Origin: an uncultured Prevotellaceae bacterium
GTDB taxonomy: Bacteria > Bacteroidota > Bacteroidia > Bacteroidales > Bacteroidaceae
Assembly: GCA_900314125.1 (NCBI GenBank)
Contig: OMUD01000126.1
Location: 1 to 37,354, forward strand
Length of the DNA stretch: 37,354 nt
Reading direction: 5' to 3'
Translations under genes and position numbers: made by a program
Notes under the pieces: model-generated
Database searches by the model: none
What the model saw: only the letters and a program-made list of their open reading frames with translations
Told to the model about the DNA's origin: nothing
Part shown: positions 9,372 through 13,164 of the stretch, piece after piece
Layout of the letters: every line of letters starts with the position of its first letter
How positions within the stretch are numbered: position 1 is the stretch's first letter

Positions 9372-9989
9372 TTATCTCACAAAACTGGTTCTCACAGGTC
9401 TTTCCAACTCAGGGTGCTCGTCGTCATTTAATTTGTTAATCATCCATGCAATGTTCTTTGCCAATGTCCTCATGGTTTGAAGTCCCTCTTCGTCTTGAGC
9501 CACTTGACCTGGAGTATGCCCATAAATGATATTGATATACTGTGATGATGCGATAGGCATATTTGTCATTGAGAAATAATTATTCATTCTTTCCAATGCA
9601 GCACTTGCGCCACCCCTTCTACAAACGGCAATTGCGGCAGCAGGCTTAAATTGCATAAACCGTTTTAAAGAATAGCAAACCCTGTCCATCAATGCACAGA
9701 GGGTGCCATTGGGTCCACCAAAATAGACTGGCGATGCAAGCACAAGCGCATCAAAACCCTCTTTCATCAAATCGAACAGTTCATCATAAACATTGTCATG
9801 GAATGTGCAACGTCCCATTCTCTCGCACCATCCACACGCAATACATCCTTGCATAGCTTGCTTACCAATACCCACAATCTTAACTTCTATGCCTAAATCA
9901 TTGAAGACACTAGACATTTCTTTCAATGCAGCCATTGTATTCCCATTAGTCCTTGGACTGCCGTTAATCAGAATGATTCGCTTTCTCAT
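9372..9989 (-). CDS. Flavodoxin-fold NAD(P)H-dependent FMN reductase, iron-sulfur-flavoprotein-like
   Basis: The protein has 205 residues starting M-R-K-R-I-I-L-I-N-G-S-P-R, a flavodoxin-like FMN phosphate loop. It has A-S-P-V-Y-F-G-G-P near residue 80, typical of the NADPH-dependent FMN reductase family. Cysteines at 49, 52, 55 and 61 form C-x2-C-x2-C-x5-C, which fits the compact [4Fe-4S] motif of iron-sulfur flavoproteins. An upstream in-frame extension of about 130 residues is rejected: it is hydrophobic, not family-like, and covers the divergent promoter region. The gene is divergent from the kinase-like gene and 10 nt upstream of DUF3943. A redox role is likely; the partner is unknown. 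Confidence 0.85.
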   Translation of the reverse strand: MRKRIILINGSPRTNGNTMAALKEMSSVFNDLGIEVKIVGIGKQAMQGCIACGWCERMGRCTFHDNVYDELFDLMKEGFDALVLASPVYFGGPNGTLCALMDRVCYSLKRFMQFKPAAAIAVCRRGGASAALERMNNYFSMTNMPIASSQYINIIYGHTPGQVAQDEEGLQTMRTLAKNIAWMINKLNDDEHPELERPVRTSFVR

Positions 9990-10209: not shown

Positions 10210-12018
10210 ATGAACAACGACAGCCTAAACAATAGCTCAATGTTGCCAATAGGAAGCACATTAAACGGGAAATATACAATCACCAAACATCTTTCATCCA
10301 GGCCATTCGGGAACATATATGTGGCCAACGACCTTAAGTTTCGCGAGAATGTTCTTATAAAGGAATTATTTATCCAAGACATTTCTAGGAGAAACTCTGA
10401 TGGATTGTCGGTAGATGTAAAAAAAGGATTTGTTGAAATCTATGAAGAATATATAGATAAATTCAATGAAGAAGCCCGTATGCTCCGCCAATTCCACAAC
10501 GATCACATCATCAACGTCAGAGATTTGTTTAATGAAAACAACACCTCCTATTATGTGATGGATTATGTTGAAGGAGAGTTATTGGCAGACAAAATGGTGC
10601 GTCTGAACAAAACCCTCAGTGAATCTGAAACCCTGAGTTACTTGAATCAACTCCTTGAAGGTCTCAGCGCCATGCATAGCCAAGGTTTCTGGCATCTTGA
10701 CATCACCCCATCAAGCATCATGGTCAATAATGAGGGCGTCGTTAAATTTCTTGAATACGGTCATTGCAAATTGGTGAACAATGAGTCCACCATTATTGCA
10801 GATCAGAATCACGACCCAATGGAACTTCAGTCGAATGACGAAGCCAACATAGGTCCATGGACTGATTTTTACGCCCTTGGTGCCACATTGTATAATCTGC
10901 TCACAGGCAAACGACCACCAGCCGCCTCCGAAGTCAATGAGGCCACTAAAAGCCTGTACCACTTCCCCACCTCTGTAAGCAAGAAAATGCAGAGGCTGAT
11001 TCTATGGATGATGTCCCCCAACATATTCCGTCGTCCTCAAGACATCAATGAGGTCAATGAATTCCTCTATGGCATCAACATGACAGGCAAAGAAGACAAG
11101 ACATTCCAGAAGAACCTGAATAATGTGTCGGGGAAATCCGCTTCTTCAGTTGTCCACAACATACAAAACGACACGGAAGACGATGATGATGAAGACGATG
11201 ATGACGAAGACGGATTGGGAAATAAAGCCTTGAAAGCCATGCAAATATTCCTTTTCCTCGCAGCAGTTGGGGTTTTAGGTTATTTTGCCTACAGGATGTT
11301 TGCTGGTGGAGAGAGACAGAAATCAAAGGATGACACCACAGACCTTCAAATCGTGAAGGAAAAACCAAAGGAAGAAAGTGTGCTAATTGATTCCCTGCGT
11401 ACTTCCGCAGACATCTTCGCTCTAACAGAAGAAGAGAAAAAAGCAGAAGAGGCTAAAAAAGCAGAAGAAGCAAAAAAGGCCGAAGAAGCAAAGAAAGCAG
11501 AAGAAGAGAAAAACAAGCAAGCTGAGAATGAATCAGCAAATGCTGCGGATTCAGACAATAATCATTCCAAAGACAATGAGAATGTGAAAACAGATTCAGA
11601 GACTTCACAAGATTCTGACAACAAAGCAACAAAAGACAAAGAATCTCAATCCGCCAACACCTCAAGCGCATCAAACACAGAAAAGGAGAAAAAAGAAAGT
11701 ACTCCTGATAAGGACGGCTCCAATGCGAAGGATAATAATAAATCCGGTTCTGAGCAGTCGTCCCCATCCTCAAACAATAAGGACAACAATTCGCAGCAGC
11801 CCGGGTCAGATAATTCCAAAAAGCTCCACAATATGATTGTGGGCAGTTTTGGAAATCAAGACAATGCCAATGCACGAGCTGCCGAATTGAAAGCAGAAGG
11901 CTACAACGCTGTAGTAAGGAGTTCGGGTTCCAACTATAGGGTTGTTGTTGTGAATGCAAACGATGCTTCCAGAGACAGACTTAAATCAAAATATAGTGAC
12001 GCCTGGGAGGAACAATAG
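10210..12018 (+). CDS. Transmembrane kinase-like protein (probable pseudokinase) with C-terminal SPOR domain
   Basis: The protein has 602 residues from the ATG; a TTG two codons upstream (10204) is possible. Residues 12-285 have a Ser/Thr kinase fold: Lys51 in V-L-I-K, an alpha-C Glu at 87/88, H-L-D at 162-164 and W-T-D-F-Y-A-L-G for the helix-F Asp. Key residues are changed: the glycine loop reads S-S-R-P-F-G, the catalytic-loop Lys is Thr166, the Asn is Ser169, and DFG is E-Y-G (Glu182). An acidic run (about 324-334) precedes one membrane segment at about 340-362. Four K-A-E-E-type repeats (409-432) and a long Asn/Ser/Lys linker lead to a SPOR domain at about 539-602, a fold that binds denuded peptidoglycan. 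The kinase domain is probably cytoplasmic and SPOR periplasmic. ATP hydrolysis is doubtful, though Asp164 is kept. Confidence 0.88.
   Translation: MNNDSLNNSSMLPIGSTLNGKYTITKHLSSRPFGNIYVANDLKFRENVLIKELFIQDISRRNSDGLSVDVKKGFVEIYEEYIDKFNEEARMLRQFHNDHIINVRDLFNENNTSYYVMDYVEGELLADKMVRLNKTLSESETLSYLNQLLEGLSAMHSQGFWHLDITPSSIMVNNEGVVKFLEYGHCKLVNNESTIIADQNHDPMELQSNDEANIGPWTDFYALGATLYNLLTGKRPPAASEVNEATKSLYHFPTSVSKKMQRLILWMMSPNIFRRPQDINEVNEFLYGINMTGKEDKTFQKNLNNVSGKSASSVVHNIQNDTEDDDDEDDDDEDGLGNKALKAMQIFLFLAAVGVLGYFAYRMFAGGERQKSKDDTTDLQIVKEKPKEESVLIDSLRTSADIFALTEEEKKAEEAKKAEEAKKAEEAKKAEEEKNKQAENESANAADSDNNHSKDNENVKTDSETSQDSDNKATKDKESQSANTSSASNTEKEKKESTPDKDGSNAKDNNKSGSEQSSPSSNNKDNNSQQPGSDNSKKLHNMIVGSFGNQDNANARAAELKAEGYNAVVRSSGSNYRVVVVNANDASRDRLKSKYSDAWEEQ
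11446..11508 (+). repeat. In-frame repeats coding for an E-A-K-K-A-E-type helix
   Basis: Near-identical 15-nt units (gcagaagaagcaaaaaa and variants) encode successive A-E-E-A-K-K. They lie in the periplasmic linker of the kinase-like protein and predict a rigid single helix. Copy number may vary between strains. Confidence 0.7.
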
Positions 12019-12084
12019 CCACTACTTTTCCTCACCTAAAAATCACTCAAATTGCATAAGAACCAAAGGAAACCAACCATTTTA

Positions 12085-13164
12085 ATGGGATTCATCATCA
12101 TTTTCTTATTGATTGTCATCATCAGCCACACGTACGTTTTTTGGCACATGTGGCAAGTTATTCCTTTGTCATCAGTTTGGAAAAGTGTGATTATCTCATG
12201 CTGCGCCTTGGCATTCAGCTGCCTTTTCCTATATCTCAGTCCCGCTCAAGACAAGATGCCAATGACATTGGCAAGAATAGTGTATGAATTAGGCACATCT
12301 TGGCTTATTGTACTCTTATACCTAATTATCATATTCTTAGTATTGGATATATGCCGTCTATTCCATGCCATTCCCAAGTCTCTACTCCACAACAGCCTGC
12401 CAACCTGTTTGGGCATAGTACTGGTAATCGGTTTAGTCCTATTTTGCGGTAACATTCATTACCATCACAAACTCAGACACGAAGTTAACATCAAAAGTCA
12501 GAAAGTGAAAGGAAGGCATAAGTTGCTATTTATCAGCGACCTTCATCTTGGCTATCATAATCCTCGTTCTGAGTTTTCCAGATGGGTAGATTTGGTAAAT
12601 GCCGAAAAGGCAGAATTGATTTTGATTGGAGGTGACATCATTGACGGCAATATACGCCCGCTTGATGAAGAACAAACATGGGAAGAATTCCAAAAAATTG
12701 AATCCCCCATGTTCGCATGCTTGGGCAATCACGAATATCTTGCCGGCAAACAGAAATCAGAAGAGTTCTATAAACAATCCGGCATCACCTTATTGAAAGA
12801 CGAAGTCAGCAATTATGGAGATTATAGTATTATAGGTCGAGATGACAGGACTAACAAAAATCGATCGGACCTTCAATCATTAGTAAAAAAAGCCAACAAA
12901 AAGAAATTCAATATCCTCATAGACCATCAACCATACCATTTGGAAGAAGCCGAGAATTCAGGCATAGACCTCCAGCTCAGCGGTCACACCCATCATGGAC
13001 AAGTATGGCCTTTAAACTGGATAACGGACTGTTTGTATGAATGTGCATACGGATATCACCAAAGAGGCAACACACATTATTATGTAAGTTCGGGTATTGG
13101 TATCTGGGGCGGTAAATTCAGAATAGGCACATGTTCTGAATACGTTGTAATAAATATCAATTGA
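12085..13164 (+). CDS. Membrane-anchored metallophosphoesterase (YaeI/YkuE-like)
   Basis: From the ATG the protein has 359 residues. Four hydrophobic segments occupy roughly the first 130 residues. The calcineurin-like domain follows with complete metal motifs: S-D-L-H-L-G, G-G-D-I-I-D, G-N-H-E, I-D-H-Q-P and S-G-H-T-H-H-G-Q. Such enzymes are membrane-bound phosphoesterases; some relatives act on lipid substrates, but the substrate here cannot be deduced. A TTG 11 codons upstream (12052) would give 370 residues; ATG is chosen as the more usual start. The gene begins 66 nt after the kinase-like gene on the same strand and is probably co-transcribed. It has a paralogue of the same layout at 29203-30330. 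Confidence 0.9.
   Translation: MGFIIIFLLIVIISHTYVFWHMWQVIPLSSVWKSVIISCCALAFSCLFLYLSPAQDKMPMTLARIVYELGTSWLIVLLYLIIIFLVLDICRLFHAIPKSLLHNSLPTCLGIVLVIGLVLFCGNIHYHHKLRHEVNIKSQKVKGRHKLLFISDLHLGYHNPRSEFSRWVDLVNAEKAELILIGGDIIDGNIRPLDEEQTWEEFQKIESPMFACLGNHEYLAGKQKSEEFYKQSGITLLKDEVSNYGDYSIIGRDDRTNKNRSDLQSLVKKANKKKFNILIDHQPYHLEEAENSGIDLQLSGHTHHGQVWPLNWITDCLYECAYGYHQRGNTHYYVSSGIGIWGGKFRIGTCSEYVVININ

Follow-up and report, generated by a model that had tools for sequence, protein, structure and literature searches.

A transmembrane pseudokinase ending in a SPOR domain, a candidate cell wall scaffold in Bacteroidaceae

What could a kinase domain that lacks catalytic residues do when its chain also crosses the membrane and ends in a SPOR domain? 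This question is raised by a gene in a 37,354-nucleotide stretch of DNA (the window) from an uncultured Prevotellaceae bacterium, a gut or rumen member of the Bacteroidaceae. The features under discussion are as follows.

10210..12018, + strand: gene for the pseudokinase-transmembrane-SPOR protein, 602 residues, ATG start (ORF and Pfam)
10231..11079, + strand: pseudokinase domain, residues 8-290 (motif alignment, AF2 model, PpkA fold match)
11080..11229, + strand: acidic juxtamembrane linker (TEDDDDEDDDDEDG), residues 291-340 (sequence)
11230..11292, + strand: single transmembrane helix, about residues 341-361 (hydropathy; helix in the model)
11293..11814, + strand: linker of about 170 residues (362-535), a Lys/Glu/Ala-rich helix with KAEEA repeats followed by a disordered Ser/Asn/Lys stretch (model)
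11815..12015, + strand: SPOR domain, residues 536-602 (Pfam; AF2 core pLDDT about 90; RlpA SPOR fold match)
12052..13164, + strand: YaeI-like metallophosphoesterase with N-terminal membrane helices, 33 bp past the pseudokinase stop codon

The ORF matches the Pfam kinase profile (PF00069; E 9e-29, 101 bits, cut-off 31.7), and the AF2 model of this part (pLDDT 80, pTM 0.80; low confidence in the activation segment, 185-211) has the bilobal Hanks-type fold. Such a model had been suggested as a check in the earlier note, and it folds as expected. Its nearest match is PpkA (Z 28.3), followed by PknA and PknB (Z about 24); MviN is absent among the 50 fold matches listed. PpkA (5hnv, which we take to be the kinase domain of the Serratia protein) is also the best solved match by sequence (E 1e-27). 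Residues 542-585 match the SPOR profile (PF05036; E 6e-8, 33.4 bits, cut-off 21), and a model of the SPOR domain made without an alignment (pLDDT about 90) has an RNP-like fold. Its top matches are the SPOR domain of Pseudomonas aeruginosa RlpA (6i05 and 6i09, Z 8.4), one structure containing denuded glycan, with CwlC and the FtsN SPOR further down among CutA-like folds. Profile and fold therefore bear out the C-terminal SPOR domain that had been called from the letters of the sequence, and the membrane crossing corresponds to a single hydrophobic segment that starts at about residue 341.

The protein is not a PASTA kinase of the PknB/Stk1 kind, as it scores 112 bits against the PknB_PASTA_kin model, below the cut-off of 450; the Pfam scan of the 602 residues found no PASTA domain. 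The NCBIfam FtsN model matches the linker and SPOR domain weakly (30.8 bits, cut-off 107.65). In the model of residues 362-535 a helix (H61-113 in model numbering) is followed by a remainder of low pLDDT. A tract akin to the acidic juxtamembrane linker is also present in a sister active kinase (L055). There is no signal sequence ahead of the kinase domain, from which we infer that this domain lies inside and the SPOR domain outside. The Lys and Arg residues flanking the helix, two before it and three or four after it, do not follow the positive-inside rule; most active relatives have more of them before the helix.

Can the kinase domain phosphorylate? Alignment confirmed that it keeps K51, D164 and the helix-F Asp (D219, in a TDFYALG motif), as the earlier note had read them, and the altered residues given there were correct in identity and number. 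The glycine loop is SSRPFG (residues 29-34), with Arg in place of its second glycine (column 31). The catalytic loop is HLDITPSS (162-169), with K166T and N169S, and DFG is replaced by EYG (182-184), with D182E and Tyr 183 at the Phe position. Moreover, the P+1/APE segment (198-206, around the APE Glu) has been rewritten, reading NHDPMELQ vs TPxYAPxEQ. A set of structural and catalytic positions is untouched: Y22, G34, Y37, K51, F85, E88 (the alpha-C Glu), M117, H156, H162, D164, P167, G184, E205, D219 and R275. The losses thus map mainly to the ATP/Mg cleft and the activation segment. As four residues of a competent Ser/Thr kinase (K166, N169, the DFG Asp D182 and Gly31) are replaced in all three orthologues, with the Lys and the HxD Asp kept, the domain is predicted to be catalytically inactive.

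The orthologues were recognized in a set of 52 family kinases from Bacteroidaceae and related genomes, which contains three pseudokinases and 49 others. The three share the signature SSR-x-[FL]-G, HLDITPSSI and FLEYG: the window protein, a full-length orthologue with SPOR domain in genome G012 (57% identical to the window protein), and one in G009, which ends at a contig end ahead of the transmembrane helix. The G009 sequence is apparently the same record as L035 (JAFUVE010000065.1, a rumen Bacteroidaceae; same ORF). Because the kinase domains of G012 and G009 are 99% alike, the three genomes, all of one genus, represent two independent lineages only. In the 49 other kinases the Lys, HxD-K-N and DFG are intact, except that one incomplete sequence, L088, does not cover the Lys. 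Six positions that are 100% invariant in these relatives are changed in all three orthologues, namely G31R, position 36, K166T, N169S, D182E and F183Y, so the altered positions are conserved as a group, as the earlier note had proposed should be checked. As columns 31, 166, 169, 182 and 183 are invariant in those of the 49 relatives that align at them and have the same states in both lineages, this pattern of substitution is, by the alignment, far from chance.

These changes have been maintained. Within the close pair the kinase domain shows a dN of 0.006 and a dS of 0.27 (dN/dS about 0.02), which points to strong purifying selection; in the distant pair dN is 0.23 and dS is saturated. The two lineages share 70% identity in the kinase domain, 61% in the SPOR domain, 39% in the juxtamembrane linker and 37% in the linker after the helix; the N-terminal end is also poorly kept, and the best-kept part (about 83%) is residues 181-280, the C-lobe and activation segment. 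For comparison, an intact sister kinase whose two neighbouring genes look alike in these two species (C295 in the window genome, C43 in G012) shows 59% identity in its kinase domain, so that the inactive domain has changed less than the intact one; flanking proteins range from 44% to 93% identity. Recent decay was rejected, since the same losses occur in two diverged lineages with low dN/dS. The earlier note had named intact HRD-K-N and DFG motifs in orthologues as grounds for refutation; the orthologues carry the same changes instead, and we regard the pseudokinase assignment as well supported.

Some form of chemistry might nevertheless persist in this domain. Nucleotide could be bound through K51/E88 and D164, with weak, metal-free or non-kinase catalysis as the outcome; all orthologues retain K51, E88, H162 and D164, a metal might in principle be held by E182, and some pseudokinases, such as SelO and SidJ, do have other activities (PMC12599244). 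Against this, a glycine loop with Arg, loss of the catalytic Lys and Asn, the change of the DFG Asp to Glu and the rewritten activation segment all occur together, and we consider residual catalysis quite unlikely.

In a maximum-likelihood tree the three pseudokinases form one clade (100/100) that falls among the active kinases (99/100); its stem is long (1.41) and its tips are short. By this tree, the pseudokinase is shown to have arisen from within the active kinases. A phage origin was also considered and rejected: the search gave just weak matches to kinases, and viral contigs yielded none. Could the protein then act on one of its active relatives? It might be an allosteric subunit that pairs with an active sister kinase, for example C295, through the kinase-domain dimer face, so that SPOR binding switches the phosphorylation carried out by the partner. 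All three pseudokinase genomes have active sister kinases with a transmembrane helix of their own, the window genome also encodes FHA and PP2C proteins, and the C-lobe is highly kept. However, the sister position of the pseudokinase clade to the C295 group is weakly supported (84/74), the two genes are unlinked, and other genomes have active family kinases and no detected pseudokinase. We grade this regulation of a sister kinase as a strong rival to a scaffold, a tentative possibility that deserves to be kept in mind.

Alternatively, the dead kinase domain could be a mere folded plug or anchor on the cytoplasmic side of a SPOR protein and have no partner of its own. The poorly kept linkers and N-terminal end would fit such a role, but the very low dN/dS, the 70% identity of the domain and the best-kept C-lobe argue for a specific surface, which makes a plug very improbable. 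An assembly or frameshift error that fused a SPOR gene with part of a kinase gene had to be considered as well, because the draft assembly is broken into 323 contigs. It was refuted by the full-length architecture at the same locus in G012, and we give it practically no weight.

What does the SPOR domain recognize? Characterised SPOR proteins bind denuded glycan by means of a conserved Gln and a basic patch. In RlpA, Q270 contacts the glycan, and this Gln is important for binding denuded glycan (PMC6895207). It is kept in FtsN and CwlC, but in an alignment to these proteins the pseudokinase SPOR has Ile at this position. Ile or Val also occupies it in all other Bacteroidales SPOR domains read (L130, L131 and L137-L139). 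The change from Gln to Ile looks like a trait of the Bacteroidales group and not a peculiarity of this protein, and the ligand mode of Bacteroidales SPOR domains may differ from that of RlpA and FtsN. The domain may bind glycan. The earlier note had linked it to denuded glycan at division sites; the SPOR fold stood, but with the contacting Gln replaced, a septal location is uncertain.

A search of 295 Bacteroidales genomes with the SPOR part returned the window ORF as the sole kinase fusion. The other matches were mostly ORFs of 150-410 residues, too short for a kinase-transmembrane-SPOR layout, and the longer or doubtful ORFs that were inspected (in G489, G095 and G538) proved to be HU-like transmembrane-SPOR proteins. 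By these searches the pseudokinase-SPOR protein is restricted to a single small clade within a genus.

The window and G012 share the gene order DUF4923, L,D-transpeptidase (YkuD), DUF3943 (- strand), pseudokinase, metallophosphoesterase, ruvX, def, TPR, thrS and infC, and G009 has the first part of this order up to its contig end. An FMN reductase gene (9372-9947, - strand) between DUF3943 and the pseudokinase is found in the window only, being absent from the syntenic G012 and G009 loci. The metallophosphoesterase is likely to be on the same transcript as the pseudokinase, given the 33-bp gap, and their adjacency is kept in G012. Obligate coupling of the two was rejected, since many Bacteroidaceae genomes have the metallophosphoesterase without a detected pseudokinase. 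The pseudokinase is absent from the ruvX locus of the other genomes of the genus where this locus is readable. At ruvX loci of several Bacteroidaceae genera (L116, L123 and L125) a SPOR gene lies directly upstream of ruvX; in L116 and L123 its product is a lipoprotein, judged by the N-terminus. Fusion in place with this SPOR gene is unsupported; a similar lipoprotein is encoded here on another contig (C168, L130). No defence genes were found among the flanking genes scanned, and PADLOC matches to the protein were generic kinase-domain matches, which removes a defence-system kinase from consideration.

Several loci elsewhere may bear on phosphosignalling in these bacteria. In the window genome, contig C59 (L132, 1-10163) has a cluster of two PP2C-type phosphatases, two FHA proteins and VWA-like, caspase-like and kinase-like proteins, a possible phosphosignalling island, and one family kinase (L052) carries an FGE-sulfatase domain. 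Close arrays of family kinases with differing C-terminal parts are present in other Bacteroidaceae (L060, G024:C82; L062, G052:C348; L063, G047:C243).

We propose that the pseudokinase-SPOR protein is most likely a bitopic scaffold that docks a cytoplasmic partner at suitable glycan, a reading to which we assign a probability of roughly 0.55. One transmembrane helix would keep the inactive Hanks-type domain in the cytoplasm, and the periplasmic linker and SPOR domain would tether the protein to peptidoglycan, placing it at sites of suitable glycan, probably glycan that amidases have processed. The pseudokinase fold would there offer a docking surface. The best candidate partner may be an active sister kinase of the same genome, or alternatively a division or wall-synthesis protein; both partner and cellular site are suggestions. 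The protein would probably tether to or report on the cell wall rather than phosphorylate, and the phosphorylation-free link between wall and cytoplasm that the earlier note suggested is plausible. A docking face is favoured by the high conservation of residues 181-280. The scaffold is further favoured by catalytic losses shared by two lineages and seen in none of the 49 relatives, by the low dN vs dS of the closest pair, by the nested position, long stem and short tips in the tree, by lesser divergence than the syntenic sister kinase, by the predicted folds, and by the precedents of MviN, EssB and DamX.

Some observations count against a scaffold. The retained K51, E88 and D164 would still allow nucleotide binding or unusual chemistry, the SPOR domain is without the Gln that contacts denuded glycan, and the charges around the helix are not positive-inside, though the kinase domain would be expected to remain cytoplasmic, as no signal sequence precedes it. 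The metallophosphoesterase is the only potential partner gene that adjoins the pseudokinase, and there are just the two lineages. In a bolder and, in our view, unlikely version, the pseudokinase would sense glycan and pass the signal across the membrane, either by controlling the activity of a sister kinase or through binding of nucleotide without metal; it would in effect be a wall receptor made from a non-phosphorylating kinase.

A role is known for only a small number of bacterial pseudokinases. The scaffold proposed here has a built-in address in its SPOR domain, it arose within a group of active kinases that these cells still possess, and few residues are specific to its clade, so that a transition from kinase to scaffold can be tested. 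It may also provide a handle on cell division in Bacteroidaceae, within the reach that its narrow range allows. Kinase and SPOR domains are known kinds of protein; their pairing is new to us. No published protein joining a SPOR domain to a kinase or pseudokinase was found in the partial collection of literature searched, and a 2025 review of bacterial pseudokinase families has no mention of SPOR or of Bacteroid- names.

Among known systems, MviN and EssB are membrane pseudokinases that recruit partners as scaffolds (PMC12599244). MviN (MurJ) of Mycobacterium tuberculosis, of the ActPs3 family, likewise has a cytoplasmic pseudokinase on a transmembrane cell wall protein and serves as a recruiting platform (PMC12599244). 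However, it is polytopic, is needed for peptidoglycan synthesis in Actinobacteria and has no SPOR domain, and ActPs3 proteins have lost the VAIK Lys, the HRD motif and part of the activation loop (PMC12599244), whereas our protein keeps K51 and HxD. EssB/YukC of Firmicutes type VII secretion is likewise a single-pass pseudokinase with a scaffold role (PMC12599244), but it has lost all three motifs, is part of a secretion machine and has no SPOR domain. The DYD pseudokinases are defined by a VAIK Lys changed to Arg, no alpha-C Glu and a DYD motif; here K51 and E88 are present and the motif is EYG. DamX, FtsN and DedD of Escherichia coli have a bitopic plan of a cytoplasmic part, a transmembrane helix, a long linker and a C-terminal SPOR domain, which our protein would share in its predicted orientation, and DamX acts on PBPs and in division (PMC7642682). 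These proteins belong to another phylum and are not described with a kinase fold inside. PpkA, the closest solved structure by sequence and fold, differs in keeping the catalytic-loop Asp and Asn (HRDISLDN) and DFG, and its solved domain is without SPOR. Bacteroidales also have transmembrane-SPOR proteins that we take to be HU-CCDC81-like, and one is encoded in the window genome (C203; L131, 4114-5752). The gene next to it encodes a zinc-ribbon FHA protein, which may connect SPOR to phosphosignalling a second time in this bacterium. Its plan of an N-terminal domain, transmembrane helix, linker and SPOR domain is the same, but it has an HU-like fold inside where the pseudokinase-SPOR protein has a kinase.
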